From NCBI RefSeq assembly GCF_017676385.1, contig NZ_JAFFZN010000001.1, positions 372,001 to 436,000 on the forward strand: a DNA stretch of 64,000 bases, read 5' to 3'. A model generated the notes under the pieces. It had not been told where the DNA came from, did no database searches, and saw only the letters and a list, made by a program, of their open reading frames with translations. This document shows, piece by piece, positions 25,318-63,641 of the stretch (position 1 is its first letter; each line of letters begins with the position of its first letter). The translations under genes were made by a program, and so were the position numbers. This DNA comes from Streptomyces spirodelae (GTDB lineage Bacteria > Actinomycetota > Actinomycetes > Streptomycetales > Streptomycetaceae).

Positions 25318-25328
25318 TACACGGGCGC

Positions 25329-25578: not shown

Positions 25579-25716
25579 GTGGGTAGCTCTTCTCTGGCAC
25601 CTACACGCGAGCTCAACGACTCGCACTGGTCCGGCGCGTTGGTCCTGATCGGCACTCGCCTCAACCAGATCAAGGCGGCAGAGTTCCCCGAGCCTCCCGC
25701 CGACCCGGAAGTGTGA
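25579..25716 (+). CDS. Short open frame of unknown function
   Basis: A possible 45-residue product starts at GTG 25579 and ends with EFPEPPADPEV. It is hydrophilic except for a short segment (WSGALVLIGTRLNQI). It could be the C-terminal remnant of a larger lost gene or a small protein. No ribosome binding site is obvious and I do not recognise the family. Confidence 0.25.
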   Translation: MGSSSLAPTRELNDSHWSGALVLIGTRLNQIKAAEFPEPPADPEV

Positions 25717-25726
25717 TCCCGCGGGT

Positions 25727-26182: not shown

Positions 26183-26192
26183 GCGAGCTCCT

Positions 26193-28092: not shown

Positions 28093-28651
28093 GATGCAAT
28101 TCCTCCACCGGCATCACCAAAGCCAGCGCAGTGATACCACGGCTAATTCAAAGACTTTGCCCAGCCCGCAGCCACTGAGAGGCGGCCCGCGTCAGCGTGC
28201 GAGCGCCGCACCCGAGGGCCGGAATGTTGCCAACCAGTCCCGGGAAATCAAGTCCCGCCGACATTCGGGTCCAGCCTCGATGATCCGGAAAACGATCCTG
28301 GCATCGTCACGCTATTTGCAACAGGGTGGGTATACACAAGGACGCTCCGGTGGCTGCCCCCGGTGACGATAGTGCGCAACATGCGACCTACTTTCTTCCG
28401 GCGTTCACACGGAGCAACGGATCATCACTCCATGGGGTGACTGTAGGTCAAGGCCGGGGGCTCTCCGCCACCCCGTGGTACGCCGGTGGGAAGTACCAGT
28501 TCCCACCCATCCCACCTGCTCCCATTCGATTTCAGGTTCGATGTGACGGTGGAGGCGAACGGGCTCTCCTCATCGGGGATTCCGCGAGTTCGCGCCTCCG
28601 ATGTCACAGGAAAAGCTGCCTCCCGCACCCCAGGAAAGTGGCATAGGACAC
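28093..28651. other. Intergenic region between ImmA-like operon and XRE gene
   Basis: About 560 bp without a convincing gene. It should contain the divergent promoters of the protease operon and the XRE regulator. It is somewhat less GC-rich than flanking chromosome. A TATACA box near 28340 could be a -10 element. I saw no clear palindromic operator. Confidence 0.4.
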
Positions 28652-29515: not shown

Positions 29516-29539
29516 GCCCAACTTCCGCTCGTGAGGCAT

Positions 29540-29575
29540 GGTAAGGGCCTCCGTCGCAGAGCAGAGGCCCTTACC
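29540..29575 (+). terminator. Hairpin terminator after the XRE/MmyB gene
   Basis: Perfect 12-bp arms (29540-29551 and 29564-29575) with a 12-nt loop lie 24 bp after the stop codon. Confidence 0.8.
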
Positions 29576-29881
29576 AGGGCGAAGCCCCAGGTGGGGCGGA
29601 AGAATCAACCTGTACGCTCCGTACAGCTACCCGCCGATGCCCGGGGACTTCGGTCCCATGACGCTGGTTGTGAGCCACTCGACGTCAACGAGCTGGGCGG
29701 TGGAGTCGGAAGCGCGGGGCGGCCGGTCCATGGCTCCTCATTCCCTGTTTCCGCATCACTCTCAGCAGCCGCTCGAACTGTCATATCCTAGGCCGGTGAC
29801 GCTTCTTGCCGCTGTTACTCAGGAGGCAAATCCCCTTCTCTAGAAGGGGACTCTCACCATGCGGTCCCCCTGCTACACGGT
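29576..29881. other. Intergenic stretch between convergent operons
   Basis: About 300 bp with no convincing gene on either strand. It lies between the XRE terminator and the end of the toxin-immunity operon and contains the small hairpin at 29832-29849. Confidence 0.4.
29832..29849 (-). terminator. Hairpin terminator downstream of the immunity gene
   Basis: CCCCTTCT and AGAAGGGG form a tight hairpin 33 bp beyond the immunity stop codon. On the minus strand it is followed by ATTT. Confidence 0.65.
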
Positions 29882-30367
29882 TCAGCGGAGGTAGTGAGGA
29901 AGTCTGTTTTCGGCGGCGTCGTGGAACCTTCGCAGTCGATCGTGTTCCTCTTCCATGAGATCCAGGATTTCGTAGGCGTAGGCAGCTGCATCGATGGACC
30001 GCCCGGAGGTGATCTCCTCGTAGAGGAGCCACGTGCCGCCGCGGATGACATCCAGACACTTCTCGGCAATGTCCTCCTGTTCGCCGCAGGCGAGGGACTG
30101 CAGCACCGCTAGGAGGTTCCGTCGGTGTTCCGTCGGTACATCGGCAGCGAGGGCACTCATCACCATAGAAGCAGTGGGGATGGCAGGCGCCATCAGATTG
30201 GACTGGATGTATGCATGATTGTCCGCCCAGTCTTCGCCTGCCCGGTCAGCCGGAGCCTTGGAGAGCGCAGAGAGGAAGTCCCGGGGGATGTGGTCTGCAT
30301 CCCTGCCGCAACCGCACGTCATGCCGGCCCAGTCGAACCGGGAAATTTCGATCCGGATGATATCCAC
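29882..30367 (-). CDS. Probable immunity protein for the Rhs toxin
   Basis: The 161-residue acidic protein appears mainly alpha-helical, with repeated helical segments (NLLAVLQSLACGEQEDIAE; AAYAYEILDLMEEEHDRL), and has no signal peptide. I do not recognise a named family. The assignment rests on position: its GTG start is 8 bp after the stop of the Rhs toxin gene on the same strand, exactly where cognate immunity genes sit, and a terminator follows. The start could be further upstream, inside the toxin gene. Confidence 0.7.
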   Translation of the reverse strand: MDIIRIEISRFDWAGMTCGCGRDADHIPRDFLSALSKAPADRAGEDWADNHAYIQSNLMAPAIPTASMVMSALAADVPTEHRRNLLAVLQSLACGEQEDIAEKCLDVIRGGTWLLYEEITSGRSIDAAAYAYEILDLMEEEHDRLRRFHDAAENRLPHYLR

Positions 30368-30375
30368 GTCACCTA

Positions 30376-33300: not shown

Positions 33301-35895
33301 GGCGTCGTAGGCGATGGCGGTGGTGTGCTTGAGCGGGTCGGTCACCGTGATGAGGTTGCTGACCTTGTCGTAGCCGTACCGCCAGGTGTGCTTTCCCGCA
33401 TCGGCTCCGTCGATGTGTCCGCGTGCGGTGACGGTGGTGACGCGGCGTCCGCCCTTATCGTAGGTGTGGGTGGTCTTCGCTCCCGTGCGGTCGGTGAACG
33501 AGGACAGGTGCCCCAGGGCGTCGTAGGCGTACGTGGCTGTCTTGCCTGACGGATCCTTCCAGGCCACTTTCCGGTTCGCCGCATCGTAGCGGTAGCTGGA
33601 CACACGCTCCGCCGCGTCTGTGACGGTGGTGAGGTTGCCCGCCTCGTCATACCCGTAGGACGTCGCATCACCGTAGAGCCCGGTGATCTTGGTCAGACGG
33701 TCGGCCGCGTCGTATGCGTAGCGCGTGGTGAAGTCTGCGGCATCCGCGCCCTGTTCGTTGCCCCGCGGGCTGGTGACCGTCACCGCTCTGCCCGCCTGGT
33801 CGAAGGCGCGGGTGGTCTTACGCCCCTCCGGGCTGGTTACCGAGACCTGGTTACCGGCAGCGTCATAGCCATAGGTGGTAGTGCCGCCTCCGGGCGAGGT
33901 CACCGTCTTGGGGAGGCCGGAAGCGGTGTAGGTGAAGCGGGCGGTGTGCCCGCTCGGGTCCTCGACCGAGGTCAGTAGGTGGTTCGCGTTGTAGGCGTAG
34001 CTCCACTCGTTGTACTCACCGTCCTCGTAGGAGGAGACATTCCCGTCCGCGTCATAGCTCCAGGACTCATCCCCATCCGCCGTACGGCGCTCGGTCTGCC
34101 GCCCCTGCTTGTCGTACTCCCAGGAGGTGTAGCGCAGCAGGGCGTCCATGGCGCTGGTCCGGTTGAAGTGCCGGTCGTAGCCGTACTGAACCTGGTTGCC
34201 GAACGGATCGAGCTGCGCGAACAACACGTTGTCGTGGTAGATGTCCGTCCACACCCCGCCGTCGGGCGCCGTGACGTCGACCTGGTCGAAGACTCCTGTC
34301 TTCGTGTACGCGAAAGATGTCTTCCCGCCAGAAGCATCGGTCTGCGAGGTGACCCGGTTCTTGTCGTCGTACACGTTGACCGCGCGGACGTTGCCGCGCT
34401 CATCGGTGATCTTGCTCAGATGGCGGTCGGCGTCGTATGCGTAGTGCTCGGTTTCGCCGTCCGTGCCCGTCACGCTGCTCAGCAGGTCATCGGTGTAGGC
34501 GTACTTGACGCTTCGTCCGTCGGCGAGCGTCAGCTTCGTCAGCCGGTCACCGGAGTAGGAGAGGGCGACCGTGCGTCCCGCGGCATCGCGGATGGTGGAG
34601 ACTCGCCCGCTGGAGTAGGTGAACTCCAGTCCCTGCCCTGCCTGGCTCTTCAAGGCTGTCAGCCGGCCGGAGGCATCGAACGAGTAGGTGCGATGGTCTC
34701 CAGTGGTCAGCCGGTAGCCCGCGTCCGTTGCGGCGAGTCGGGAGCGCGCCCAGTCAGGTGTGGAGTAGTCGCCGTCCTCCTGCTTGGCGTACAGGTGACG
34801 TGCGCCGCCCTCGCCGTGCAGGACGATATCCCCGTCCTCCTGCTTGTGCAGGGACACCTCCCAGGGCAGGAGCCATCCGCGACCGAGAGCGCCGCTGGTG
34901 GTGACGTCGGACGAGTAGGTGCGCTTCGCCTCGAACGCCACCCCAGGCGCTGGCACGCTCGCATCCGTGAGGCACTCGGTGAACGTTCCGGTCGAGGTGT
35001 TGATCGGGTCGGCTCGCAGCACGTCTGCGCGCGGGGCCCCACTCGCATCGCCGCACAGCCCGCCTCGCGCCGGGCCGTTCGCCAAGCTCGGTACCACCTG
35101 GAAGCCGACGTAGGCCGCCGCCGCGCTGCCGACCGGACTGTCGGGGTCCTCCAGCACCTCCGCGTGTGCCCAGATGAGCACCTGGTTCTGCGAGCTTGAG
35201 CACGGCTCGTCCGGGATGGGGATCTGCGCGGAGACCACCGGCGGCTTCGGCCCGTCCCTGCTGCTGTCGTCTCCCCAGCTCGGAGCGCTGACCACCTGGT
35301 CGAAGTCATAGGTGATGTCCTCACCCGTCGTACAGCGCTCCACCTCCCAGGTGACCTTCACATCCCGCCACTCCACCTCGTCGTTCTCCGGCCCGAGGTT
35401 CCACACCGAAGCCGACAAAGTGATCGGCTCCCCCGGCACAGCGACACCGTTGCGATGGGACACGTTCAGCGAACCCGCGCCATCCCACGCCGCCTTGGCC
35501 CCGAAGGGATCCTGCGCCATCAGCGGCACGATCATGCCCGTGTTCTTGATCTCCCCCGACGCACTCGTGACAGCAGCGCGCCTTCTCTTCCCCGGTCCTG
35601 CGGCACGTGAAGACTCCACCCGCTTCACGTCATCCGCAGTGGCCCTCTTCCCCGTGCTGTTCGCCAGAGCATGCGCCTTGGCGTCTCCAGCGCGCAGCCT
35701 GGTCTGCTCCCGGCGTTCTTTCAGAGACATCGGCTCCTGATGAGCCGCTGGCTGGGGCGCCGCCCCCACCCGGTCTCCGGCGCCACCGTCCTGCTGATCC
35801 GTCGACAGGCGCAACAGCCAGCCCCCGCCTGCCACAACGGACAACACCAGCAGCACAACAAGCAGACGCACCCGCACGGAAGCAGCGGTCAGCAC
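30376..35895 (-). CDS. Rhs-repeat polymorphic toxin with C-terminal deaminase-like domain
   Basis: The product is about 1839 residues. Order: an N-terminal signal-anchor helix (VRLLVVLLVLSVVAGGGWLL), a linker and beta-rich region, a DUF6531-type start of the Rhs cage (DPINTSTGTFTEC), about 25 YD/Rhs repeats (GxxYxYDxxGN type), and the Rhs core end with NDPANQSDPSG encoded near 31258-31269. A hydrophobic Gly/Ala region and a variable C-terminus of about 150 residues follow. The C-terminus has CAE (Cys codon at 30586-30588) and a CxxC pair 30 residues on, the zinc-site pattern of deaminase toxins, closest to the YwqJ-like type from memory. Rhs cages store and deliver such toxins to neighbouring cells. 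GTG 35895 was chosen over TTG 35922 because a GGGGGG stretch precedes it. Confidence 0.9.
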   Translation of the reverse strand: MLTAASVRVRLLVVLLVLSVVAGGGWLLRLSTDQQDGGAGDRVGAAPQPAAHQEPMSLKERREQTRLRAGDAKAHALANSTGKRATADDVKRVESSRAAGPGKRRRAAVTSASGEIKNTGMIVPLMAQDPFGAKAAWDGAGSLNVSHRNGVAVPGEPITLSASVWNLGPENDEVEWRDVKVTWEVERCTTGEDITYDFDQVVSAPSWGDDSSRDGPKPPVVSAQIPIPDEPCSSSQNQVLIWAHAEVLEDPDSPVGSAAAAYVGFQVVPSLANGPARGGLCGDASGAPRADVLRADPINTSTGTFTECLTDASVPAPGVAFEAKRTYSSDVTTSGALGRGWLLPWEVSLHKQEDGDIVLHGEGGARHLYAKQEDGDYSTPDWARSRLAATDAGYRLTTGDHRTYSFDASGRLTALKSQAGQGLEFTYSSGRVSTIRDAAGRTVALSYSGDRLTKLTLADGRSVKYAYTDDLLSSVTGTDGETEHYAYDADRHLSKITDERGNVRAVNVYDDKNRVTSQTDASGGKTSFAYTKTGVFDQVDVTAPDGGVWTDIYHDNVLFAQLDPFGNQVQYGYDRHFNRTSAMDALLRYTSWEYDKQGRQTERRTADGDESWSYDADGNVSSYEDGEYNEWSYAYNANHLLTSVEDPSGHTARFTYTASGLPKTVTSPGGGTTTYGYDAAGNQVSVTSPEGRKTTRAFDQAGRAVTVTSPRGNEQGADAADFTTRYAYDAADRLTKITGLYGDATSYGYDEAGNLTTVTDAAERVSSYRYDAANRKVAWKDPSGKTATYAYDALGHLSSFTDRTGAKTTHTYDKGGRRVTTVTARGHIDGADAGKHTWRYGYDKVSNLITVTDPLKHTTAIAYDAENRPVSTTNPLGQTRQVTYDDNGNVTRIQNAFYKVRNLKYDANQRLISAESKNGEATKFEYDADGNLTAEVSPLSERTTHAYDQDGLLMATVDPRGGEQGADPADFTWKFGYDADANPVSITDPLGNRRTAVFDAYGNRTAATDATGHTTRYAFDALHRVDKVTAPDGGTTTLGYDSAGYLATTTDAEGHTTSFGHDAEGRRTSTTDPLKRTVRAAYDAEGNLTRATNARGQTISAAFDPLGRTTKVDYSDDTPDTLLTYDELGRPTKVTDATGTRTLTYDDGQLASITAPGAPKAFKYRYEAGRVRYRYDTEGEDYRRSFDDNGRVTSQRFNYKTVTYGYDAAGNLTSTTLPTDTGRGETRAYDAAGRLASLTTPAGKRTFTRDAEGRITADTPAEGPATRYAYDDAGRMTRTCTDTSGTSCLDATSAGTTYAYDKSGNLLTEARDGKTTSHTYDAADQLTKTTTGSATTSYAYDPDGNQTKDGSDTYTYDPAGRVKTADLGADTYSFTYDADGNRTQTRKNGNPARTTHWDINSPLPQIATEYDGAGSLLAEYQDAPTGMPQSAHRSGKDTYLTHDRQNSVTGVYDTTGTETHRYTYGPWGKTDSKKGGGSGQPSAFGYTGQYKDPVLPDRLLLRARSYDPTQHRFTTTDPIRAGPDSANQSPYAYADNDPANQSDPSGLCPPCVRILGGGTIGGLIGGTSYTLNHWDDFNWRDLAKASGKGALIGAGAGYLAPAGSSFSAAMGLQGGRAYLTSTLVNAGVGAGYTWAVNTVQCQPTTPTDLLIGAAGGGAANLTGPAWNSLKASLSKTPTARTGGLLLDMPQLPSARGPAGKIPAVVETHSAPPNWSHASQMQRAEDMIEGFALKNYTRRTSTRAYVGGYNVRTGEIAVASSGGRFPGMAYCAEGNVCLALGGDAASVRITNAYTVEKVHGTLVVKPKPVCAKCQSDFPSPFQFPRGVQHDSPGPWDSQSY

Positions 35896-36281
35896 AATCC
35901 CCCCATAGGATCGACACAGCAAGCGCGCACCTATGTGCGAACTGTGAACATCAGACTCGGCTCACTGTGCTGCGATCGACAATGCCGCCTATCTGTAAAA
36001 GTCGGACACGTCTCAGAGTCGAAGCAGTGATCGTTACCCTGCCGTGATGTCGCTCTCATGTCCGACCCTCACTGAGTCAGGAATTCTTATTGGCTGGCCC
36101 CACCTCACTCTTGGCGACCACCCCCGTGGACAGGCCGTCGTCGGGACGGTCGTCGGTTCCGTCATCGCTGAGGCAGCCTCGCCATCCTGCGATGCCCCGA
36201 TGAAACCGCCATGAAATAGAGAACGCAGCACCCACGCGTCGATAGGGTGCGGTGGTGATGGGTGACGCAGGCAAGCTCGAA
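35896..36281. other. Upstream region of the Rhs toxin gene
   Basis: About 386 bp without a convincing gene. It should contain the Rhs promoter. Base composition is lower in GC than in flanking chromosomal DNA. I see no clear operator. Confidence 0.4.
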
Positions 36282-36545
36282 TCAGCGAGTCTCTCCCCGA
36301 ACGAGCTGGCGGAGATTGCCGCCGCGTTCGGACTTGGTGAGGTCGATGAGCCCCAGGTCTTCCGCCGAATTGTCCAGGTCCCACAGCCGCAGATGAGCGG
36401 AGACGACCTGCTTCGCGCAGCGAACCGCCCTGGGGGTCACGATGAGGTCCATCTCCAGCTGCCCCGGGCGGCTCTGGCTTCGTTCGTGCACGCCAGTTAC
36501 GTCGAACCCTGCGGTGTCGAGATGGTTCGGCATTGCGAGTTCCAT
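36282..36545 (-). pseudogene. Fragment of an HATPase_c (anti-sigma-type) ATP-binding protein
   Basis: An 87-residue frame resembles only the N-terminal part of Streptomyces ATP-binding regulatory proteins: VTPRAVRCAKQVVSAHLRLW followed by a DNSAEDLGL segment. These normally lead into the ELVTNA ATP-binding motif. Here that motif and the rest of the fold are missing and the frame ends in unrelated sequence. Such ATPases often sit beside XRE regulators in streptomycetes, which fits the divergent XRE gene. It is probably a decayed partner gene. Confidence 0.55.
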
Positions 36546-36697
36546 TTCGTTGGTCCGAAACCTCGGCAGAGGTCTCTGGTTGCGGTGTGTACTTGCGTTG
36601 CGGCAGTCAGCAACCATTGAGACAGCGCACGGGATCGATGTGCAGAGGTCGATGCGGACGCCTTCAGGCATCCGCATCAGGACGACGAGGACAGCCA

Positions 36698-38101
36698 ATG
36701 CCTCAGCCGGAGAAGGCCCTTGATCCGAGCAACTCACCCCAGGAGTGGTTCGGCCATGAGCTGCGACTGCGCCGCAAGGAACGCGGTTTCAGGACAGCTG
36801 CGTCCCTTGCGGGAGAAGTGCAGGTCAGCGTTGATGTGATCTTGAAAATCGAGAAGGGGACGTACCGATGTCCGCGCGACCTGGCCCCCAGGCTCGACGA
36901 AGCCCTGGGGACCGGAGGGCTCTTCATGCGGGCCTGGGCGATGGTGTACGGCGATGCGGATAAAAGGGCTGCCGAAGCGGATAAGAGGGGCCGACGGCCG
37001 GGGAACCGTAACCCGGTGGCCGGGGCAGGCCGCATCCTGGATGCAGATACCTCATCCGTGTCGACCGGGAGTCCTGAGCCTGTGGACCGTCGTTCCTTCT
37101 TCGCCGTCGGCAGCCTGGCCGCCCTCGCCCCCCTGGACCTCGCTCATCTGATGGGTGGGACGGGCCAGCTTCCTCTGCCGAAAAAGATCACTTCCCGGGA
37201 GATCCAGCAGCTCCTGTCCATCGCTGACGGTCTGCACAGCTGGGACCATGCTCACGGCGGGGGCGGCCTCGTCGGCGAGCTCGCAACAGGGGCCATGCAG
37301 TGGGCCGTGCGCCTGCTGTCACTCGACTGCCCCGAATCCCTGCGACAGCAATTTCTCACCGCCATAGCGCGCCTGGGCATCGTTGCGGGCGCCAGCCACT
37401 TCGACACGTACGAGCACGATCAAGCACGTGTCTCCTTCAAGGTGGCTGTGGAGTGCGCGGAGGAAGCCAGGGACTGGCACCTGCGCGCCAAGGGCTGCTC
37501 CTTCCTTGCTCGCCAGGCCATCTGGGTAGGTGACCCCGACGGTGGACTCACGCACGCGGAAAAGGGCCTGGTGCGCTCCGACCGACTGACCGCAACGGAG
37601 CGGGCCATGCTTCACACCGCCCGGGCTCGCGCGTTCGGGAAACTCCGCAACCCACGCGAGACACTGGCCGCTGTCGGAGCCGCCGACGACGCCTTCGCAC
37701 AGCGCCGCCCCGACCAGGACCCGCCGTGGATGGCCTACTACGACGAAGCCCAGCACAACGGCGACACCGCACACGCTCTCTTCGACCTGGCCGTCGGCGT
37801 GGACGGGTACAACCCTCAGCATGCCGGCCAGAGATTCCAGGCAGCCGTCCGAGGACACGATCCGGCCTTCACGCGCTCAAGAGCGATCTCCTGCACGAAG
37901 CTGGCCTCACTCGTCATGGCCAAGGGCGACCCGCGGGAGGCAGCCGACATCGGCCACAAGGCCATTGCACTCGCGGGCCCACTGACCTCCCGGCGAGCGG
38001 CCGACGACCTTCGCGAGCTGGGCCGCTACGCCTCCCGCCACAAGGAGATCCAAGAAGCCGCTGTTCTGCGGGAACGGATCACCGCTACCTTGCAAACATG
38101 A
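36698..38101 (+). CDS. XRE family regulator with TPR-like C-terminal region
   Basis: The 467-residue protein has an XRE helix-turn-helix (LRLRRKERGFRTAASLAGEVQVSVDVILKIEKG region) in the first 80 residues, a linker with DRRSFFAVGSLAAL, and a long helical region with TPR-like pairs. This layout is common in Streptomyces regulators with unknown signals. ATG 36698 was chosen because GAGGA lies about 9 nt upstream and the helix-turn-helix follows. It overlaps the phosphotransferase gene by 4 bp (ATGA), so the two products are probably made in a fixed ratio and act together. Confidence 0.85.
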   Translation: MPQPEKALDPSNSPQEWFGHELRLRRKERGFRTAASLAGEVQVSVDVILKIEKGTYRCPRDLAPRLDEALGTGGLFMRAWAMVYGDADKRAAEADKRGRRPGNRNPVAGAGRILDADTSSVSTGSPEPVDRRSFFAVGSLAALAPLDLAHLMGGTGQLPLPKKITSREIQQLLSIADGLHSWDHAHGGGGLVGELATGAMQWAVRLLSLDCPESLRQQFLTAIARLGIVAGASHFDTYEHDQARVSFKVAVECAEEARDWHLRAKGCSFLARQAIWVGDPDGGLTHAEKGLVRSDRLTATERAMLHTARARAFGKLRNPRETLAAVGAADDAFAQRRPDQDPPWMAYYDEAQHNGDTAHALFDLAVGVDGYNPQHAGQRFQAAVRGHDPAFTRSRAISCTKLASLVMAKGDPREAADIGHKAIALAGPLTSRRAADDLRELGRYASRHKEIQEAAVLRERITATLQT

Positions 38102-38979
38102 CCACCGAGGCAGCCCCCGCCCTTGACGCTCTCGCCCAGGCGTGCGCCCTCGTCGGCCTCAACTCACAGGGCGCCGAACCGGTGCGCATCGCCGAGAACC
38201 AGATCTGGCGGCTGCAGGAAGGCGTGGTCGCCCGCATAGCGCGGGCGGGCCAGCTGCACACCGCACAACGCGAGGTGCGCGTCGCCCGATGGCTTACGGA
38301 CCATGGCGTCCCCGCCGTCCGCGCCGCCAGCGTCCAGCAGCCAGTAGAAACCGACGGACGCCCCGTGACCTTCTGGGAAGAGCTCCCACCCAGCGAGCAC
38401 GGCACCGTCTCAGACGTAGCGCTTCTCCTGAAGCAGCTGCACTCGCTGCCGGAGCCCGACTTCAACATCGGCACTCTGGACCCCTTCGTGCGCGTCTCCG
38501 CCCGGCTGGACGCCGCGACGACGCTCCCGGACCAGGACGTGCGCTGGCTGCGCGGTCTCCACCGGGAGCTCGAAACCGCATGGGCCGAACTGCCTGCCGG
38601 CCTGCCGACCTGTGCCGTCCACGGCGACGCCTGGCCCGGAAACATCGTGCGCACCTCTGCGGGACCGCTGATGATGGACCTGGAACGCTTCTCTCTCGGC
38701 CCACCCGAATGGGACCTGGTCTCCAGCGCAGTTCGGGCCAGGACAACCGGAGCGGTATCACCGCAGGAATACGAGGAGTTCTGCCACACGTACGGCCACG
38801 ACGTCACCGACTGGGCGGGATACCCGACCCTGGCAGGAGCACGCGAACTGCGCATGGTCACGTACGCAGCACAGCATGCGGCATCCCACCCGGAATGGCG
38901 CACCCAAGCCCAGCACCGCGTCGACTGCCTGCGGGGACGCTGCGGACCACGTCCTTGGCAGTGGGAGGGCATTCCATAA
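38098..38979 (+). CDS. Phosphotransferase of the APH/choline kinase-like family
   Basis: The 293-residue protein has the APH fold signs: an N-terminal ATP-site lobe, the catalytic loop CAVHGDAWPGNIV (HGD..xxN) and the metal segment MMDLERFSLGPPEWDL, where Asp replaces the usual IDWE pattern. It should phosphorylate a small molecule such as an aminoglycoside, choline or nucleoside. Its start overlaps the XRE-TPR stop (ATGA). As element cargo it may modify an antibiotic or a signal; the substrate is unknown. Confidence 0.85.
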   Translation: MTTEAAPALDALAQACALVGLNSQGAEPVRIAENQIWRLQEGVVARIARAGQLHTAQREVRVARWLTDHGVPAVRAASVQQPVETDGRPVTFWEELPPSEHGTVSDVALLLKQLHSLPEPDFNIGTLDPFVRVSARLDAATTLPDQDVRWLRGLHRELETAWAELPAGLPTCAVHGDAWPGNIVRTSAGPLMMDLERFSLGPPEWDLVSSAVRARTTGAVSPQEYEEFCHTYGHDVTDWAGYPTLAGARELRMVTYAAQHAASHPEWRTQAQHRVDCLRGRCGPRPWQWEGIP

Positions 38980-51801: not shown

Positions 51802-54186
51802 ATGCCGGAACCCATGTCCCTCACCGACCGCGAGGCCGAGGCGCTGGACGCACAGTGGCGTGCCCTGAACTACCTCTCGGCCTGCCAGCTGTATCTGCGT
51901 GCCAACCCGCTGCTGCGCGAGCCGCTGCGGCCCGAGCACATCAAGCCGAGGCTGCTGGGCCACTGGGGCACCTGCCCCGGTCTCACTCTCGTCCACACCC
52001 ATCTCAACCGGCTGATCAGCGAGCGAGGGCAGCGCGCCATGGGGGTGTGGGGGCCGGGGCACGGGGCCGCTGCCGTGCTGGCGGGCGCCTGGCTGGACGG
52101 CAGCTATCAGGAGCTGCGGCCGGACGTGCAGCGGGACGGCGCCGGCATGGAGCGGCTGTTCGCGGACTTCTCCCAGCCGGGCGGCGTCCCCAGCCATACA
52201 TCGCCGAGCGTCCCCGGGTCGATCCAGGAGGGCGGCGAGCTGGGCTATGCACTGGCCCACGCCTACGGTGCTGCGTTCGACAACCCGGATCTGCTGGTGT
52301 GCGCGGTGGTCGGCGACGGCGAGGCGGAGACGGGACCGCTGGCCACCTCCTGGCACGCGAACAAGTTCCTGGACCCGGTGCACGACGGCGCCGTACTGCC
52401 GGTGCTGCATCTGAACGGGTACAAGATCGCGAACCCGACGGTGCTGGCCCGGCTGCCCGAGGACGAGCTGGGCGCGCTGATGCGCGGCTACGGCTACGAG
52501 CCGCTGTTCGTCACGGCTGAGCAGGACACCTCGCCGCTGGAGGCGCACCGGGCGCTGGCCGCGGCCTTCGACAGGGCGCTGGAGAGGATCGGCGCCATCC
52601 AGCGCGCCGCCCGCTCCGGTGCCGTCGAGGCGGCAGGGCGGCCGCACTGGCCGATGGTGGTGCTGCGTACGCCCAAGGGCTGGTCGGGCCCCCGGGAGCT
52701 GGACGGGGAGCCGGTCGAGGGCACCTGGCGCTCCCACCAGGTGCCGCTCCCGGGGGTGCGGGACGATCCGGAGCGGCTGCGGCAGCTGGAGGAGTGGCTG
52801 CGTTCGTACCGGCCCGAGGAGCTGTTCGACCAGGACGGCAGGCCGCGGCCCGAGGTGCTGGAGTGCGTACCGGAGGGGGATCTGAGGCTGGGCGCCGTTC
52901 CCGAGGCGAACGGCGGTCGGCTGCTGCGGGAGCTGCCGCTTCCCCCGCTGGAGTCGTGCGCGGTGCCGGTGGAGCGGCCCGGGGCCGGGGCGCACGAGCC
53001 GACACGGGCGCTCGGTGAGCTGCTGAGGGGACTGCTCGCGGCCACCGAGGACCGCCGTGACTTCCGGCTGTTCGGTCCCGACGAGACGGACTCCAACCAT
53101 CTCTCCGCGGTCTACGCCGCCTCCGACCGCGGCTGGCAGGCCGGGCTGCTGGGCACCGACGAGCATCTGGGCCGGCACGGGCGGGTACTGGAAGTGCTCT
53201 CCGAACACCTGTGCCAGGGCTGGCTGGAGGGGTATGTACTGACCGGCAGGAACGGGCTGTTCGCCTCCTACGAGGCGTTCGCCAACCTGGTGGCGAGCAT
53301 GGCGGCGCAGCATGTGAAGTGGGTGCACAGCGCCCGGGAGGTGTCCTGGCGGCGGCCGGTCGCCGCGCTCAACTACGTGCTCACCTCGCACGCCTGGCGC
53401 CAGGACCACAACGGCTTCTCGCACCAGGACCCCGGCTTCATCGACCATGTGCTCAGCAAGAGCCCCGACGTGGTGCGGGTCTATCTGCCGCCGGACACCA
53501 ACACCCTGCTGTGCGTGGCCGACCACGCGCTGCGGACCCGGGACACGGTGAACGTGGTGGTGGCGGGCAAGCACCCGTGCTTCGACTGGCTGGATCTCGA
53601 CCAGGCGCGTGCCCACTGTGCGCGCGGCGTGGGCGTATGGGGGTGGGCCGGCACCGAGCGCGGTGACGGGCCCGATGTGGTGCTTGCCTGCGCAGGGGAC
53701 GTGCCCACCCAGGAGACGCTGGCGGCCGCCTCACTGCTGCGCGAGTGGCTGCCCCAGTTGGCGGTGCGGGTGGTCAATGTGGTGGACATCGCGCGGCTGA
53801 TGAGCCCCACCGAGCATCCGCACGGCCTGAGTGACGCGGAGTTCGACACCGTCTTCACCCGGGACCGGCCTGTGATCTTCGCGTACCACGGCTATCCGTG
53901 GCTGGTGCACCGGCTGACGTACTCCCGAGCCGTGCACGGCCAGCTGGCGGTACGCGGCTACCGCGAGTCCGGCTCGACGACGACGCCGTTCGACATGGTG
54001 GTGCGCAACGGCATGGACCGCTACCACCTGGTGATGGACGTCATCGACCGGACGCCGGGGCTGGGCGCGCGGGCCGCGAGCGTGCGGCAGCGGGCGGCCG
54101 ATCTGCGCGAGCGGCACCGGGAGTACGTACTCGCACACGGCGCGGACATGCCGGAGGTCACCGACTGGCGCTGGCCGGGCCGGTGA
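51802..54186 (+). CDS. xfp: Phosphoketolase (xylulose-5-phosphate/fructose-6-phosphate)
   Basis: The 794-residue thiamine-diphosphate enzyme matches phosphoketolases in length and motifs: GHWGTCPGL, GPGHGAAAVLAGAWLDGSY, the cofactor motif GDGEAETGP...HLNGYKIANPT, and the late SHQDPGFIDHV. It splits xylulose 5-phosphate or fructose 6-phosphate to acetyl phosphate and an aldose phosphate. It is divergent from the GAF regulator and convergent with the encapsulin genes. Acetyl phosphate metabolism and the nearby aldehyde dehydrogenase both feed C2 metabolism, but a functional link is only inferred. Confidence 0.95.
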   Translation: MPEPMSLTDREAEALDAQWRALNYLSACQLYLRANPLLREPLRPEHIKPRLLGHWGTCPGLTLVHTHLNRLISERGQRAMGVWGPGHGAAAVLAGAWLDGSYQELRPDVQRDGAGMERLFADFSQPGGVPSHTSPSVPGSIQEGGELGYALAHAYGAAFDNPDLLVCAVVGDGEAETGPLATSWHANKFLDPVHDGAVLPVLHLNGYKIANPTVLARLPEDELGALMRGYGYEPLFVTAEQDTSPLEAHRALAAAFDRALERIGAIQRAARSGAVEAAGRPHWPMVVLRTPKGWSGPRELDGEPVEGTWRSHQVPLPGVRDDPERLRQLEEWLRSYRPEELFDQDGRPRPEVLECVPEGDLRLGAVPEANGGRLLRELPLPPLESCAVPVERPGAGAHEPTRALGELLRGLLAATEDRRDFRLFGPDETDSNHLSAVYAASDRGWQAGLLGTDEHLGRHGRVLEVLSEHLCQGWLEGYVLTGRNGLFASYEAFANLVASMAAQHVKWVHSAREVSWRRPVAALNYVLTSHAWRQDHNGFSHQDPGFIDHVLSKSPDVVRVYLPPDTNTLLCVADHALRTRDTVNVVVAGKHPCFDWLDLDQARAHCARGVGVWGWAGTERGDGPDVVLACAGDVPTQETLAAASLLREWLPQLAVRVVNVVDIARLMSPTEHPHGLSDAEFDTVFTRDRPVIFAYHGYPWLVHRLTYSRAVHGQLAVRGYRESGSTTTPFDMVVRNGMDRYHLVMDVIDRTPGLGARAASVRQRAADLRERHREYVLAHGADMPEVTDWRWPGR

Positions 54187-54200
54187 CCTCCGGTCCGGGA

Positions 54201-54226
54201 TCCGGCCCCTGCCACCTGGGGCCGGA
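54201..54226. terminator. Hairpin terminator between phosphoketolase and encapsulin genes
   Basis: 9-bp arms TCCGGCCCC and GGGGCCGGA with an 8-nt loop lie between two converging genes. Confidence 0.72.
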
Positions 54227-54255
54227 CCCCTGCTGAGGGGTTCGGTCGGGCCGGG

Positions 54256-55644
54256 TCAGACCTCGACGTCCTCCAGAATGCCCAGCGCGTCCGGCACCAG
54301 GACGGCCGCCGAGAAGTAGACGCTCACCAGGTAGGAGATCAGCGCCTTCTCGTCGATGCCCATGAAGCGGACGTTGAGGGAGGGCTGGACCTCGTCGGGG
54401 ATGCCGGTCTGGTGCAGCCCGATGACGCCCTGGTCCTCCATGCCTGTGCGCATGGCCAGCACCGAACTGGTCCCGTCCCCGCGTACCGGGATCTTGTCGC
54501 AGGGCAGCAGCGGGATGCCGCGCCAGGCGTGCGCCCTGGCGCCCTCGACCTGGGTCTGTTCGGGGTAGATGCCGCGCTTGCTGCACTCCCGCCCGATGGC
54601 GGCGATGGTACGTGGATGCGCCAGCAGGTAGCGGGTCTTGCGGCGGCGTGAGATCAGCTCGTCCAGGTCCTCGGGCGCCGGCGGGCCCGACCGGGCGCGG
54701 ATGCGCTGGCTGAGGTCCGCGTTGTACAGCAGCCCGAACTCGCGGTTGTTGACCAGCTCGTTCTCCTGGCGCTCGCGCAGCGCCTCGATGGTGAGCCGCA
54801 GCTGCTCCTGCACCTGGTTCATCGGGTCGTTGTAGAGGTCGGCGACCCGGCTGTGGACCCTGAGCACGGTCTGTGCGACGGCCAGCTCGTACTCCCGGGG
54901 GCGCAGTTCGTAGTCGACGAAGGTGCCGGGTAGCGGCTGCTCGCCGACGTGTCCCGAGGCCAGCGCGATATCGGCCTCGCCACGCCGGTTCTGCGCTGGT
55001 ACGGAGCGGGCCAGCAGGGTGTCGAGGTGCCGGCGCAGCGGCGGCGCTGCCTCCACCGTCTGCTGGAACGTGCTGCGGGGCAGGGCGAGTACGGTGCAGC
55101 GCGTGGTGGCGCGCAGCGTGTACTCCCAGCTTCCTGGGTCGTTGGTGAGGATCTGATCGCCGGCGTGGTCGCCGTCGGCGATGACACCGAGCTCGATCTC
55201 GTCGTCGTACTGGCCCGCGGCCTGCTTGACGACGCGGCCGTGCGCGATCAGCAGCAGCTCGTCGGTGGGCTCGCCGCGCACGGCCAGCGCCTCACCGGGC
55301 GCGTATTCGCGCTGGGTGAAGCCGTCGGCCAGCGCGCGCAGGGACGCCTCGTCCTCCAGGCCGCGCAGCAGTGGGATCTCCCGCAGCTCGGCCGGGATGA
55401 CGCTGACGTCGGTGCCGGTGGAGACGAACTCGATCCTGCCGTCGCCCAGGGTGTGGGTGAGCCGCCGGTTGACGCGGTAGCTGCCGCCGGTGGTCTCCGT
55501 CCAGGGCAGTACCCGCAGCAGCCAGCGGGGGGAGATCCCCTGCATCTGCGGCGGCGTCTTGGTGGTGGTGGTGAGCTTGCGCGCGGCCGCTGTGGAGAGG
55601 CTCGAGCGGTCGTGCTGCTGGACTTCTTCGGGATGCGTCGTCAT
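54256..55644 (-). CDS. Family 2B encapsulin shell protein with CNBD insertion, copy 2
   Basis: The 462-residue protein has the family 2B encapsulin layout: an N-terminal arm ([23 protein letters not shown]), a cyclic-nucleotide-binding-like domain (about 92-215) and the HK97-fold shell domain (about 220-462), ending in [17 protein letters not shown]. EshA of Streptomyces griseus is a known relative. The CNBD lacks the usual GExALLxxxxRxA phosphate-binding cassette ([12 protein letters not shown] here), so nucleotide binding is doubtful. It follows a paralogue at 55734-57146 with an 89-bp gap, probably one operon making a mixed shell. No cargo enzyme gene is adjacent. Confidence 0.9.
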
Positions 55645-55733
55645 CTGTACCCGGTTCCTGGTGTTTCCGACTGCCTGTTGTCCTGGTGTGCCGACGGCGG
55701 CTGTCCGCCGGTGTCCCGAGTCCGGGCGCGGTG

Positions 55734-57146
55734 TCAGTGCCCGAGTTCGACGTCCTCGAGGATTCCGAGCGCGTCGGGCACGAGGACGGCAGCGGAGTAG
55801 TAGGCGCTCACCAGGTAGGACATGACGGCCTTTTCGTTGATGCCCATGAAGCGCACCGAGAGGCCGGGGCTGTATTCGTCGGGGATTCCCGTCTGGTGCA
55901 GCCCGACGACTCCCTGTGCCTTCTCGCCGGTGCGCATCGCCATGATGGAGGTGCTGCCCTGCCGGCTGACCGGGATCTTGTTGCAGGGCAGGATGGGCAC
56001 GCCGCGCCAGGCGGGCAGGGAGTGCCCCTCGTAGTCGACCGACTGCGGGTAGACCCCGCGCCTGCTGCACTCGCGGCCGAACGCGGCGATCGCCTTGGGG
56101 TGGGCCAGGATGACGCTGGGGTCCTTCCACACGGTGGCCAGCAGCTCGTCGAGGTCGTCCGGCGTGGGCGGGCCGGAGCGGGTGTGGACGCGCTGCCTCA
56201 TCTCGGCGTTGTGCAGCAGGCCGATCTGACGGTTGTTGACCAGCTCGTGCTCCTGGCGCTCGCGCAGCGCCTCGATGGTGAGCCGCAGCTGCTCCTCGAG
56301 CTGGTTCATCGGATGGTTGTACAGGTCGGCGACCCTGGTGTGGACGCGCAGCACGGTCTGGGCGACTTCCAGTTCGTACTCGCGCGGGCTGAGGTCGTAG
56401 TCGACGAAGGTGCCCGGCAGGGGCGGCTCGCCCACGTGGCCGGAGGCCAGCTCGATCGCGGACTCGCCGTTCTCCGTGCGCTGGGACGGGATCAGCGAGC
56501 GGGTGGCGGCCAGGTGGGAGCGGAGCGAGTCGGAGTCGGCGAGGACGGCGTCGAAGGCGCGCCGCTCCAGGGTGAGGACGGTGCCGCTGGTGAGCGAGGT
56601 GAGGGTGTGGTCCCAGGTGCCGGTCTGGCCGGTCAGCCGGTCGTCGCCGACGAAGTCGCCGTCGGCGAGCACGCCCTGGGTGATGTCCTCGCCGTACCTG
56701 CCGCGGACGGAGCGGCGCAGCTTGCCGTGGGCGATCAGGACCAGCCGGTCCGCCGGCGCGCCCTCCTCGACGATCACCTCTCCGGGGCCGAAGTCGCGCT
56801 GCTCGCAGCGGTCGGCGAGGGCGCTCAGGACCTCCTGGTCCTCGTATCCGCGCAGCGGCGGCAGCTCGGTCAGCTCCAGCGGGATGACCCGCACCTCGGA
56901 GCCGGTGGAGACGAACTCGACCCGGCCGTCGCCGAGGGTGTGGCTCAGCCGCCGGTTCACCCGGAAGGTGCCACCGGTGACCTGGACCCATGGCAGGACC
57001 CGCAGCAGCCACCGCGAGGTGATCCCCTGCATCTGCGGGGGTGTCTTCGTGGTGGTCGCGAGATTCCGTGCCGCTGCTGTGGCCAGGCTCTGCTGGGCCT
57101 GCTCCGCGCTCTCGCTACCGGAATCCCGCTCCGCCGCAGTCGTCAT
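55734..57146 (-). CDS. Family 2B encapsulin shell protein with CNBD insertion, copy 1
   Basis: The 470-residue protein has the same order as its neighbour: an N-terminal arm with [20 protein letters not shown], a CNBD-like domain (about 100-225) and an HK97-fold shell domain ending in [17 protein letters not shown]. By eye it is clearly homologous to the 54256 product along its whole length, with strongest agreement in the shell part and least in the CNBD. The phosphate-binding cassette is again non-canonical ([12 protein letters not shown]). ATG 57146 gives a length close to EshA. As first gene of the pair it takes the promoter in the 57147-57675 gap. Confidence 0.9.
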
Positions 57147-57675: not shown

Positions 57676-58278
57676 GTGCGCATGATCGTCGGCTTGTGGC
57701 GCTGGCGCGGAAATCCGCTGTGCCGCGGCACCGACCGCCGTGAGGCGTGGCTGTCCCTGTGGGCCGCGCTGCTGATCGTCCTGGGTGCCCCGCTGGCAGG
57801 CTGGGCCGCGGCGGAGGCCGCCCACGACGTGCTGCTGCGCACGGCACACGAGCAGCAGCGGGACCGGCAGCGGATCTGGGCGACGGCCGAGCACGTCACC
57901 GTTCTGCCGCCGCTGGACTCCGAGACAGAGACAGCGGCCGGGGCGCCGAACCGCCACCGGGTCGCGGCACGCTGGACCGGCTCCGACGGCACCCCGCACA
58001 CCGGAACGGTCGTGCTGCGCCGCCTTGTGCAGCCCGGCGACCGGTTCCACGTGTGGGCCGACTCGCACGGCCGTCTGACCTCCCGCCCGATGAGCACGCG
58101 CAGCGCCGGCTCGTACGCGCTGCTGGCCGGACTGGCCGCCGCGGCCTGCACCACCGCAGCACTGGAGGCCGGGCGCCGGGTGACCGTACGGCTGCTGATG
58201 CGGCGCCGGTACGCGCGCTGGGACGCGGAGTGGGTACGCATCGGTCCCGACTGGGGCCGCACCGGCACCAGCAACTGA
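57676..58278 (+). CDS. Rv1733c-family membrane protein
   Basis: The 200-residue protein has the Rv1733c layout: a short N-terminus with [13 protein letters not shown], a first membrane helix ([20 protein letters not shown]), an extracytoplasmic domain of about 95 residues, a second membrane helix ([20 protein letters not shown]) and a basic tail. The function is unknown. Streptomycetes usually carry several paralogues. GTG 57676 has AAGGGGGTGA upstream; ATG 57682 is also possible. Confidence 0.85.
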
Positions 58279-58475: not shown

Positions 58476-60980
58476 ATGGCACAGGGCTCGGTCCAGGTGA
58501 CGCACAGCGGCACGTCGCGGTGGCGGCGGCGTACGGGCGAATACGCGTCGTTGTCCGCCGCGCTGGAGGCGGCCGGCGACGGTGACGTACTCACCGTGGC
58601 GCCCGGCACCTACCGGGAGAACCTCGTCATCGAGCGCATGGTGACCCTGCGCGGCCCGGAGCGCGGCGGCTCCGGGCCCGTGCGTATCGCGCCCTCCGAC
58701 GGCGTGGCGCTGACCGTGCGCTCCGCCGCGCTCGTCCAGGACCTCCAGATCGAGGGCCAGGACTCTGCCGTACCCGCCGTGCTGGTGGAGGACGCGGCGC
58801 CGGAGCTGGCCGGGCTGCGGGTGATGACCCGCTCGGCCTCGGGCATCGAGGTGCGCGGCGGCGCCCGGCCCACGGTGCGGCGCTGCACCGTGGACAACCC
58901 GGCCGGGATCGGCATCAGCATCACCGGCGGGGCGAGCGGCGTCTACGAGGAATGCGAGGTGGTCGCCGCCGGCCAGTCCGGGGTCCAGGTGCGGGACGGC
59001 GCCCGTCCGCGCCTGGCGCACTGCAAGGTGCACCTCGCCTCCGGAGCCGGTATCGCGCTCCAGGGTGAGGGCAGCACTCTGGAGGCGCTGGACTGCGAGG
59101 TGTACGAGATCAAAGGCAGCGGGCTCCGCGTCGCGGCGCGCGCCAGCGGGCACTTCACCGACTGCCGGGTGCACCGCACCTCGGCCGACGGGGTCACCCT
59201 GGAGGGCGACGCCGTGCTCACCCTCGCCGACTGCGACATCCACGACATCCCGGAGAACGCGGTCGATCTGCGTTCCCGCTCCGTGCTCACCCTGACCCGC
59301 TCGACAGTGCGCCGCTTCGGCCGCAACGGTCTGTCGGTGTGGGACCCGGGCACCCGTGCGGACGCCAACGGCTGTGAGATACATGAGAGTACGGGCGACT
59401 ATCCGGCGGTGTGGGTGAGCGACGGCGCCACAGCGGTGCTGGACACCTGCCGGGTGCACTCGGTGCCCGACGCGCTGTTCGTCCTGGACCGGGGCTCGCG
59501 CGCCGATGTGCTCGACAGCGACCTCTCCCAGGTGCGCGGCACCGCCGTCTCGGTGAGCGACGGCGCGATCGTCCAGCTGGACGACTGCCGGATCAGCAAG
59601 GCGGCCACCGGTGCCTGGTTCCGCGACCACGGCAGCGGCGGGGTGCTCAACGGCTGCACCATCGACCAGGCGGCGACCGGCGTCATCGTCACCAAGGGCG
59701 CGGACCCCACCGTCGAGCGCTGCACGGTCAGCGGCTCGGGCGAGGCCGGGTTCTATGTGTCGGCCGAGGGGCGCGGGACCTTCCACAACTGCCGGGTGAC
59801 CGGCTCGCGCGGCTACGGCTTCCACGTCATCGACGGCTGCCGCACCACGCTGCGCCGCTGTCGCACCGACCGGTGCACGCGCGGGGGCTACGAGTTCGCC
59901 GAGGAAGGCCCGATCGTGGAGGACTGCACCAGCGACGAGAGCGCGGCAGCCGTCACCGCGCTGCCCGCCACCGCGACGAGCGGCACGGCCTCCGCCACCG
60001 CCCCGCATGCCTCCGCCGCCGAGGGCTCGGCCGGGCTGCTGACCGCGCAGGCCGCACTCCCCAGGCAGCGCTCGGAAAGCTCGCTCACCACCGGGCTCGC
60101 GGGGGCTCCGGCAGCCGCCGGTGCGCCCGGGGACGACCCCACGGGTGAGGACCCGGCCGGGGACGCGCCGCGTCCGGCCAAGGAAGTGCTGGGCGAACTC
60201 GACGCGCTGGTCGGGCTGGAGAGCGTCAAGCGCGAGGTGCGGGCGCTCACCGACATGATCGAGGTCGGCCGCTGGCGGGAGGCCGCAGGGCTCAAGGCGG
60301 CCTCCGCGCGACGGCACCTGGTCTTCACCGGCTCACCGGGCACCGGCAAGACGACGGTGGCCCGCCTCTACGGCGAGATCCTGCGCTCCCTCGGTGTGCT
60401 GCGGCGTGGACACCTGGTCGAGGTCTCCCGCGTCGACCTGGTGGGCGAGCACATCGGCTCCACGGCGATCCGCACCCAGGAGGCGTTCGAGAAGGCCAAG
60501 GGCGGGGTGCTGTTCATCGACGAGGCGTACGCGCTCGCCCCGCAGGACTCGGGCCGGGACTTCGGCCGCGAGGCCATCGACACACTGGTGAAGCTGATGG
60601 AGGACCACCGCGACGACGTGGTGGTGATCGTGGCGGGCTACACCACCGAGATGGAGCACTTCCTGGCTGCCAATCCGGGCGTGGCCTCCCGCTTCTCGCG
60701 CACGATCACCTTCGGTGACTACGCGCCGGAGGAGCTGCTGCGCATCGTCGAACAGCAGGCCGAGGAGCACGAGTACCACCTGAGTGAGGGCTCGCGGCAG
60801 GCGCTGCTCGGCTACTTCGCGCGGATGCCCAAGGGACCCTCGTTCGGCAACGGGCGTACGGCGCGGCAGACGTTCGAGGCGATGGTCGAGCGGCACGCGG
60901 GCCGGGTCGCCCAGTTGCCCGACCCGAGCACCGAGGACCTCACCCTGCTCTACCCGTCGGACCTGCCCGACTCCCACTGA
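58476..60980 (+). CDS. Right-handed beta-helix repeat protein fused to a CbxX/SpoVK-type AAA+ ATPase
   Basis: The 834-residue protein has a pectate-lyase-like N-terminus: a DUF1565-type start ([25 protein letters not shown]) followed by about 20 beta-helix rungs to about residue 480. A linker of about 70 residues rich in Ala and Gly comes next, then a C-terminal AAA+ domain with Walker [10 protein letters not shown] (about residue 617) and Walker [11 protein letters not shown] (about 677). Related AAA+ proteins are CbxX and EccA of type VII secretion. There is no signal peptide. The combination suggests a cytoplasmic machine that remodels a partner held by the beta-helix. The ATG at 58476 was chosen because the beta-helix begins soon after. 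Confidence 0.88.
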
Positions 60981-63393
60981 GCCGGTCCGGAGCCGGGTCC
61001 GGGTCCGGCTCGGGCTGCCGCGGTACGCCCTCCGTGGGCTGCCGGAACCGTACGGAGCGCTTCTTGAGGCGGGCCAGCAGTCCGGCGCGCTCCTGGGTGA
61101 AGGCGGGGTCCGCCCGATAGTCGCCGTGCGCCAGGATCGGCTCGGGCAATGGCAGTTCACGGGTGCGGCCGTAGACGAGCGGGTCGCGCAGCGGGCCGCG
61201 GTCCACGCCGCGGCACTCCGCGAGCGGTCCTGGCTCGGGGGTGTCGGCGCTCTCCGGCCGCACGGGGCCCCCGATCGGGTCGGTCAGCCGCCACAGGTTG
61301 CGCCAGCACTCCAGGCCGTCGTGGAACGCGGCGAGCCGGTGCGGCCCGAAGTAGGCGGGGAACCAGCGCCCGTAGAGGCGTTCCAGCGGGGAACCGTAGG
61401 TGAGCAGCGCGATCTGGCGACGGGTGTCCGGGTCCAGTTGCCATACGGCGGCCACCGCCAGCACGCTGCCCTGCGAGTGGCCGGAGATCACCAGGCGGCG
61501 CTCCGGCCGCTGGTCGGTCCACATCGCCATCCGCCAGGCCAGGTCGGGCACGGCGCGCTCGGCGTAGCAGGGCGGCGCGAACGGGTGGGCGCAGCGCGGC
61601 CAGAAGGTGCCCACGTCCCAGAGGATGCCGACGGTGCGGCGGGCCGAGGCGTCCTTGTAGGCGCGGCGGCTCCAGGCCAGCAGCAGGACGAAGGCGAACC
61701 CGACCAGCCAGGAGCCGAGGGCCTGGACGGTGTCGGCGAACCCCGCGACGAAGTCGGGGGCCCCGTCGGTCGCCTCGCCGGGCACCTGTCCGGTCCACAG
61801 CGTGCCGACCACGGCGGCGCCGCCAAGCACGAGGGTGGTGGCGGCGACGGTGGCCACCAGCCAGGGCGCCTGGTCGGTGAGGCCGGCCCTGGCGATCGCC
61901 GAGGCGATCCGGCGGGATCGCGACTCGTCGGGCAGAGAGTCCGGGTAGCCGGCCGCCACATCGTCGGTGAGCCGCCGCGCGTCGCGCCATACCCGGAAGA
62001 CGAACCAGCAGGCCAGCAGCAGTACCAGCGCGAGCAGCACCGGGATGACGGACGCCTGCCAAGTGAGCACGATGGGCGGTCCGGCGATGTGTCCGCCGCC
62101 CTGGCCCGGGGTGCCCGGCCCGTCCAGCCAGTCCCCGACCCGCTGGGAGACGCCGCCGGAGAGCAGTCCGCCCAGCGCGCAGGCGAGCATCCCGACACAG
62201 CCGGAGGCCAGCCCGGCCAGCGCCGTACGGGGCGCCCTGGTGATGCGGTGCAGCCGCAGTCCGAGGACGCCGAGCGCGACCACGAGGGCGCCCTGGAGCA
62301 CCGCGAGGACGCCGAACGCCTCGTCCCCGGGGAGGGGGCCGCTGGAGGTCCAGCCGGGGCGGCTCCAGCCGCTGTGCACGGCGGCGAGCAGCAGTACGGC
62401 GAGGGAGGCGCCGGGCAGCCCGTGCACGGCCGGCGAGTCCGCCTCGTCGTCCGGTTCGCCCTCCTTGCGTCCCCTGCGGCAGACGACATGGAGCACCCAG
62501 ACCGCGCCGGTCAGCACCAGCCCGGTCAGCAGCCAACCGCAGACATCGAGCACGGCGTTGCCGCCGGGCGTCCGGTCGTACTTGGTCGTGGCGGCGGTGA
62601 GGGCCCCGGCCACGGTCAGGAAACCGGCGGCGGTGTGCGCGGCGCGCAGCCGGGCGACGAGGCGCTTGCCGTACCAGAACCCGGGCAACGACAACGGCGG
62701 GCGCCCGTCGGCGGCGGGGGCGTCCTCGGGCACGGTGCGCTCCAGCGGCGGCTGGGACTCGTACGCGCTCCAGGTGCGGTGCGAGAGCCACCACAGCAGC
62801 ATCGTCACGGCGGTGGGCAGCACGGCGGCCAGCGCGAGCCTGCGGCCGGGCTGGCTCCACCAGCCGCCGGGGTCGCCGGACTCCTGCGGCGCGGCCATGA
62901 AGCCCAGCCAGGTGCGCTCCTGGGCGCAGCGCTCGCTTCCGGCGCACTGCCAGGCGATCAAATCGAGCGCCACCTCGCAGGCGGCGGCGATCAGCAGCAC
63001 GGTCAGCGAGAGCGCGATCAGCCGGACCAGGAGGCCGTGCAGCCGCACGGTGCGGCGGCGGCCGTGTGCGGCCGGCCGGGTCCAGTGTGCGAGGTTGGCG
63101 ACCATGAACGGCAGCAGGATCAGCCACAGTGCGCGGGCCCCGTTGCCCGAGGTGAGGTTCGACCAGCAGTACGCCTCCGGGACCGGCCTGCCCGCATAGT
63201 CCTCGGGGTGCCGCTCGGCGTCCACGTCCTCGGTGCGGCGGTGTATCGCCGCCGTGCTGTCCCCCGTGACGCGCTCGGTGCGCGGGTCGCCGAGCATCTC
63301 GGCGGGAGTGGTTCCCCCCACTCCGTGTACGAGCAGTTCCAGCGCCAGGCCCGGCCTTCCGGGTGCGCTGTCGGGTGCGTGGTCTGACGGCAC
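60940..63393 (-). CDS. Polytopic membrane protein with serine-hydrolase (GHSQGS) motif
   Basis: The 817-residue protein begins with [18 protein letters not shown], like the HG oxyanion region of alpha/beta hydrolases. It then has about ten membrane helices and a later nucleophile motif [14 protein letters not shown] (about residue 640). So a hydrolase fold appears to be split by or joined to a large membrane region. Related actinobacterial proteins are annotated only as membrane or lipase-like proteins. GTG 63393 is preceded by GGGGGAAG. Its last 41 bp overlap the converging beta-helix/AAA gene. Confidence 0.8.
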
Positions 63394-63641
63394 TGTGCTT
63401 CCCCCGAGTCCCCCGAACGGTGTGTCAGCTATGCATCGGCTGTGTGTGACAGCGTGTCGGATACCTGTGACAGCATCACCGTCCGGACGGCCGCTGTGCC
63501 ACCCCCTCACGGGTGAAGGTGGCGTGCCCGGTGCCGGATCGTGACAGGAGCGCCCCGGATGCGCGCATGGGAGGATGGCCCCACCGGCGGCCTCCCCCAC
63601 AGCCCCGACGAGTCGGTCAGGAAGGAACGGAGACAGCGGCA

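Follow-up and report, generated by a model that had tools for sequence, protein, structure and literature searches.

A tandem pair of family 2B encapsulin genes in Streptomyces spirodelae and a geosmin synthase as candidate cargo encoded in trans

Two-component encapsulins of family 2B have been described in large number, with 503 systems published, part of them without an obvious cargo, and for the pair of Streptomyces lydicus, Sl-Enc1 (9BJE) and Sl-Enc2 (9BIX), co-assembly was shown by the authors (PMC12407261). The same paper gives the native cargo of the xylulokinase (XK)-type two-component shells as not determined. Elsewhere, a shell gene and a gene for a geosmin-synthase-like cyclase are often neighbours (PMC8346489; PMC12224551), encapsulins being reported in all geosmin clusters of Myxococcota (PMC12224551), and GPTGLGTSAAR, which occurs in such cyclases between the two domains and at the C-terminus, was proposed as a possible targeting sequence (PMC8346489). 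Here we describe a tandem shell pair in a 64,000-nucleotide stretch of the Streptomyces spirodelae genome (the window), whose assembly comprises 7.31 Mb in 72 contigs with a listed completeness of 99.99%.

The shell pair and its surroundings

The two shell genes lie on the reverse strand at 54256-57146. The upstream member, Enc1 (55734..57146, - strand), encodes 470 amino acids and the downstream member, Enc2 (54256..55644, - strand), 462, with 63% identity between them. Both proteins match PF19307 and PF00027, i.e., a type 2 HK97 shell domain with a cyclic-nucleotide-binding domain (CNBD), and both belong to family 2B, with scores on NF041163 (encap_f2b) of 761.2 bits for Enc1 and 737.7 bits for Enc2, far over the curated cut-off of 400. 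Two shell genes within 10 kb with Enc1 upstream is the arrangement of a two-component system, and diagnostic motif 1 agrees exactly with that published in PMC12407261, reading TVWK in Enc1 and RRRK in Enc2, while the luminal diagnostic motif 2 is unlike in the two proteins. The nearest solved structures are 9BJE for Enc1 and 9BIX for Enc2. The original prediction of tandem family 2B genes for a two-component shell is borne out by these scores and signatures, and describes a kind of system already in print (PMC12407261). A third encapsulin gene beside a known cargo gene, which it had named as the refuting case, did not appear: with Enc1 as query (E<=1e-3), no third shell gene was found in the genome. 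By analogy with the S. lydicus pair, Enc1 and Enc2 would co-assemble into a mixed shell.

The 89 bp spacer between the two genes (55645..55733, - strand) has no unusually stable fold (z -0.64), and from its length and the shared strand the pair is a probable operon. Downstream of Enc2, a gap of 69 bp (54187..54255) contains an 8-bp G+C hairpin on both strands, without a U run (z -1.5 on the - strand and -2.4 on the + strand), and may possibly act as a two-way terminator. Across this gap lies the convergent phosphoketolase gene, as predicted (51802..54186, + strand), whose product is without the loading motif discussed below. On the other side, the divergent neighbour of Enc1 encodes a beta-helix and AAA ATPase protein (58476..60980, + strand, start taken from the gene model). 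Beyond it, 60940-63600 encodes a large protein without a Pfam match (785 amino acids in the gene model, 886 in the open frame), which is kept beside the beta-helix/AAA gene in the clade of this locus. The label 'Rv1733c-like', which had been given to 57676-58278, found no backing, as there were zero Pfam matches. Elsewhere in the window, 24205-38979 is an island of lower G+C content (approximately 64-67%, against 70-74% in the remaining window) with a phage-type integrase, a 1719-residue RHS-repeat protein, an APH-family phosphotransferase, a DUF6545 protein and an MmyB-like regulator; it was probably acquired.

The pair had been said to lack a cargo enzyme nearby, and our searches of the genome agree: those for terpene cyclase, prenyltransferase-type (PT) cargo and xylulokinase gave nothing on the window contig C1 and matched other contigs only. 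No xylB lies beside the pair, as it does in the XK-type systems; the xylulokinase gene of S. spirodelae is located on contig C32 between those for xylose isomerase and a ROK regulator.

We then compared the CNBDs with solved structures. The Enc2 domain (55015..55389, - strand, approximately residues 86-210) was aligned directly with the PKA regulatory subunit 3OF1, and has AGD at the FGE site of both PKA and the Streptomyces griseus shell 9BHU and no counterpart of the PKA arginine. The Enc1 domain (56502..56864, - strand, approximately residues 95-215) was aligned only through 9BHU, whose CNBD is the closest to it, and has VGD for FGE. Judged against the classical phosphate-binding cassette, FGE...R, neither CNBD qualifies, as had been predicted. 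The accompanying remark that these domains may bind another ligand or none was correct, and the explanation was already in print: with reference to earlier work, PMC12407261 reports no binding of cyclic nucleotides by the insertion domain of family 2B. A free-standing protein of 149 amino acids with a cNMP-binding domain was observed near the shell pair of another locus (L111:15380-15829) and of several relatives, its protein cluster having 7 members.

Conservation of the locus and relatives with a cyclase in cis

In order to compare gene neighbourhoods, genes in 80 loci and in genus relatives were called by a codon-bias script and clustered. The window clade was defined as the window plus those 43 of the best 80 of 459 loci whose Enc1 is 70% or more identical, a set that was fixed after the gene maps had been viewed. 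Both shell genes are kept in 43 of these 44 loci, the exception stopping at a contig edge, and in none of the 44 does a cyclase of the geosmin-synthase cluster occur near the pair within the stretches examined. That the pair persists in this clade with no cargo gene nearby is new here, as is the dispensability of the phosphoketolase gene, which is present beside Enc2 in 16 loci and absent in 20 of the 36 that could be scored, the remaining 8 lying at contig ends. This absence marks the phosphoketolase as a bystander, and we rejected it as cargo or partner, tempting as it had been for its link to xylulose 5-phosphate and because no paper naming both encapsulin and phosphoketolase turned up in the literature searched, which includes few subscription papers and hardly any preprints. 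The beta-helix/AAA gene adjoins Enc1 in 43 of the 44 loci (the miss begins at a contig edge), yet the next gene beyond is also widely conserved, so its linkage may be plain synteny and it was likewise not retained as a partner. In another Streptomyces lineage (L074, L076 and L078, from G047, G105 and G184), a single Enc2-like shell gene is convergent with phosphoketolase and the remaining neighbours differ.

A shell tree of 85 rows was calculated with IQ-TREE, its bootstrap being not fully settled and 9BHU not being among its rows. Window Enc1 and Enc2 each fall in a clade of 14 rows (100/99), and both clades lie within a Streptomyces two-component set that includes the XK-type pairs (46 rows, 92/97). 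The PT-type and 2-methylisoborneol (2-MIB)-type single shells are placed outside this set. The most telling comparison is with a relative from the same genus outside the 44 loci, G089, which has shells nested in both window clades and the gene order of the window, i.e., beta-helix/AAA, small gene, Enc1, Enc2, phosphoketolase, GAF regulator and aldehyde dehydrogenase. Between its Enc1 and Enc2 sits a geosmin-synthase-like cyclase of two domains, which carries the GLGT motif twice, scores 952.8 bits on the cargo3 model, below the cut-off, and is 48% identical to the geosmin synthase of S. spirodelae; a closer geosmin synthase is encoded elsewhere in G089. The order shell, cyclase, shell was also found in loci of Saccharopolyspora, Sorangium, Amycolatopsis and Micromonosporaceae. 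In S. himastatinicus a related single shell, which groups weakly near Enc2 (87/76), has behind it a cyclase that passes the cargo3 cut-off with a score of 1212.5. A different arrangement was seen at G310:C12:466473-469654 (mostly in L293), where a CNBD-less, 2A-like shell directly adjoins a geosmin-synthase-like cyclase in which a GLGT motif is present.

Geosmin synthase as a candidate cargo in trans

The geosmin synthase of S. spirodelae is a protein of 784 amino acids with two cyclase domains, encoded on contig C71. It has GPTGLGTSAAR-like motifs at both expected places, VPAGLGTSAADV between the domains and GPAGLGTSAARL at the C-terminus. Its score on NF041168 (cargo3) is 1171.8 against a cut-off of 1200, which formally leaves it outside that family. 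Among other candidates, the best PT match of the genome reached 315.7 against a cut-off of 450, and two cyclases reached 99.9 and 99.5 on the 2-MIB synthase model NF041167 against a cut-off of 400, the second of them belonging to the selinadiene-synthase family; PT and 2-MIB cargo were both rejected. The genome-wide search for 2-MIB synthase and other known cargo that had been proposed thus left matches of the 2-MIB type far under the cut-off and the geosmin synthase on C71 as the best candidate. Of the earlier expectation that the cargo is distant or of a new type, the first half stands with this candidate in trans, and the second is not needed. In the relative G088, shells and cyclase are approximately 1.3 Mb apart on one contig, so their unlinked encoding there is not an artefact of assembly. 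No statement of an unlinked Streptomyces geosmin synthase as encapsulin cargo was found in the parts of the literature examined, which included few subscription papers and hardly any preprints.

We further asked how specific the motif is. Among 2262 gene models for proteins other than cyclases and shells, taken from the stretches compared, some overlapping, the strict form of the motif occurred once, in an unrelated gene of the window (2-2245), and the relaxed form occurred in 59 unrelated gene models. The motif was then read in 93 cyclases, with the frameshifted copy of G010 left out, G113 and G271 counted once each, and the partial cyclase of G102 read but placed in none of the compared groups. 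All 13 window-clade genomes and all 8 genomes with XK-type tandem shells have the relaxed motif (21/21), and 12 and 7 of them, respectively, the strict one (19); G137 is grouped here as XK type on a locus with the regulator and no called xylB. The relaxed motif is also present in the 3 of 3 genomes with a phosphoketolase-linked single shell. In PT-only genomes it was found in 8 of 19 (5 of 19 strict), and, since the losses in the cyclase tree amount to one clade of 14 rows and one further row (G034), or about two events, 21/21 against 8/19 does not represent 40 independent data. As read from the cyclase sequences, the comparison does show that the GLGT motif has been retained while the tandem-shell lineages diverged, though the cyclase gene is unlinked, and it shows that a geosmin synthase can lose the motif while the shell stays. 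The Streptomyces clade without the motif comprises L305-L307, L321 and L328-L337; 10 of its 14 genomes were scored with a PT-type shell only, the typing of the remaining 4 being incomplete.

To see whether shell and cyclase occur together, we scored 393 actinomycete genomes of at least 90% completeness across the class, with thresholds of E<=1e-150 for the cyclase and E<=1e-120 for the 2B shell. The cyclase was present in 94 and the shell in 101, with 91 genomes containing both, 3 the cyclase only, 10 the shell only and 289 neither; this co-occurrence is phylogenetically clustered and the counts ignore relatedness. By genus, 20 of 122 are positive for the cyclase and 18 for the shell, and the 10 shell-only genomes represent a single genus. 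On re-inspection all three cyclase-only genomes contain shell sequence, which is CNBD-less and directly beside the cyclase in G310, split in two pieces on two contigs in G546, and partial at a contig edge in G373. Among the class positives listed, 44 genomes belong to the genus of the window and all have both genes; members of the genus with neither may exist among the other genomes. In a separate sample of the genus, the shell was found in 289 of 295 genomes, and 49 of 50 shell genomes queried have the cyclase (20/20 and 29/30), including G010, whose cyclase was scored as present though read in pieces in two frames; G266 has the shell and no such cyclase. In the six shell-less genomes the shell model gave nothing beyond CRP-like matches, and five of these are also without a full cyclase, one of them (G050) being only 82% complete, while G102, a draft of 1420 contigs, has a partial one.

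Proposed explanation, alternatives and comparison with known systems

Altogether, we propose that Enc1 and Enc2 form a mixed shell and that geosmin synthase is its trans-encoded cargo, an explanation to which we give about an even chance of being right. The two shell genes would be co-transcribed and their products co-assembled into one shell, as expected from the S. lydicus pair, which is closely related and of solved structure; the cargo would be the geosmin synthase encoded in trans on C71, with its GxxGLGTSAA-like peptide binding the inner face of the shell, and farnesyl diphosphate would be converted to geosmin inside. The CNBDs may cover the two-fold pores, the position they have in S. 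lydicus, and would not sense cAMP or cGMP. Mixed assembly, loading and the chemistry of the compartment are steps that we infer; the family and identity of the shells, their conservation without local cargo, the motif and the co-occurrence are observations. It is tempting to speculate that Streptomyces two-component 2B shells, both the cargo-less ones of this clade and the XK-type ones, are geosmin-synthase compartments whose cargo gene is unlinked and whose cargo is loaded in trans through GLGT, with XK and phosphoketolase as bystanders, a generalization that we offer tentatively and consider somewhat doubtful.

Xylulose 5-phosphate is the product of XK and the substrate of phosphoketolase, which speaks for a pentose-phosphate cargo, with xylulose kinase or the neighbouring phosphoketolase inside the two-component shell, as proposed for related Streptomyces XK systems. 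The grouping of the window shells with XK-type Enc1 and Enc2 points the same way, as does the convergent orientation of phosphoketolase, both towards the pair in the window and towards the single Enc2-like shell of the other lineage. We nevertheless regard such a cargo as improbable, as the 4.4 kb surrounding the xylulokinase gene on C32 contain no shell gene, the phosphoketolase is transcribed convergently and is so often missing beside the pair, and neither the strict nor the relaxed loading motif occurs in the xylulokinase of S. spirodelae, in any of the 18 XKs encoded at XK-type loci or in any of the 21 phosphoketolases. Shells without enzyme cargo, acting as EshA-like structural or regulatory particles of development, would account for the retention of both shell genes in nearly every window-clade locus with a cyclase near none of them, and EshA multimers without known cargo have been described in Streptomyces. 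The cyclase in cis of related pairs, once at the same syntenic locus (G089), and the GLGT motif, which the cyclases of all 21 scored tandem-shell genomes retain at least in relaxed form, both argue against empty particles, which we likewise judge to have little chance of being the answer.

Less unlikely, though still well short of probable, is another trans-encoded cargo, or several cargos selected by the luminal loops of Enc1 and Enc2. Motif 2 differs between the two proteins, and a role for it in cargo loading was suggested by the authors of PMC12407261. The exact GPTGLGT pattern gave no match at the DNA level, but this pattern also misses the variant GPAGLGT of S. spirodelae itself. Against other cargos stands the lack of any candidate besides geosmin synthase, the best PT-type and 2-MIB-type matches of this genome being below their cut-offs. 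Should geosmin synthase be the cargo, geosmin, the smell of soil, would be made within a protein shell in these Streptomyces. Searches for cargo in the neighbourhood alone leave cargo-less encapsulin operons classed as 'other', and, if a trans cargo is recognised by a short peptide, such orphan shells would become assignable.

Compared with Sl-Enc1/Sl-Enc2 of S. lydicus, the window pair shares the same-strand Enc1-Enc2 tandem, the TVWK/RRRK signature and the type 2 shell with CNBD. One S. lydicus pair (L146) adjoins xylB and a ROK regulator, whereas the window pair has other neighbours and no xyl gene nearby. With the 2B systems that have an NF041168 cargo3 cyclase (PMC8346489), the locus has in common the shell family, and its candidate cyclase has two GLGT motifs; in contrast to those systems, the gene of this cyclase is on a different contig, and its product falls just short of the curated cut-off. 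The S. griseus shell 9BHU and the PT-type and 2-MIB-type single shells are, like Enc1 and Enc2, family 2B proteins with a CNBD, and the PT and 2-MIB loci examined, unlike the tandem of the window, consist of a single shell gene with the cargo gene downstream.
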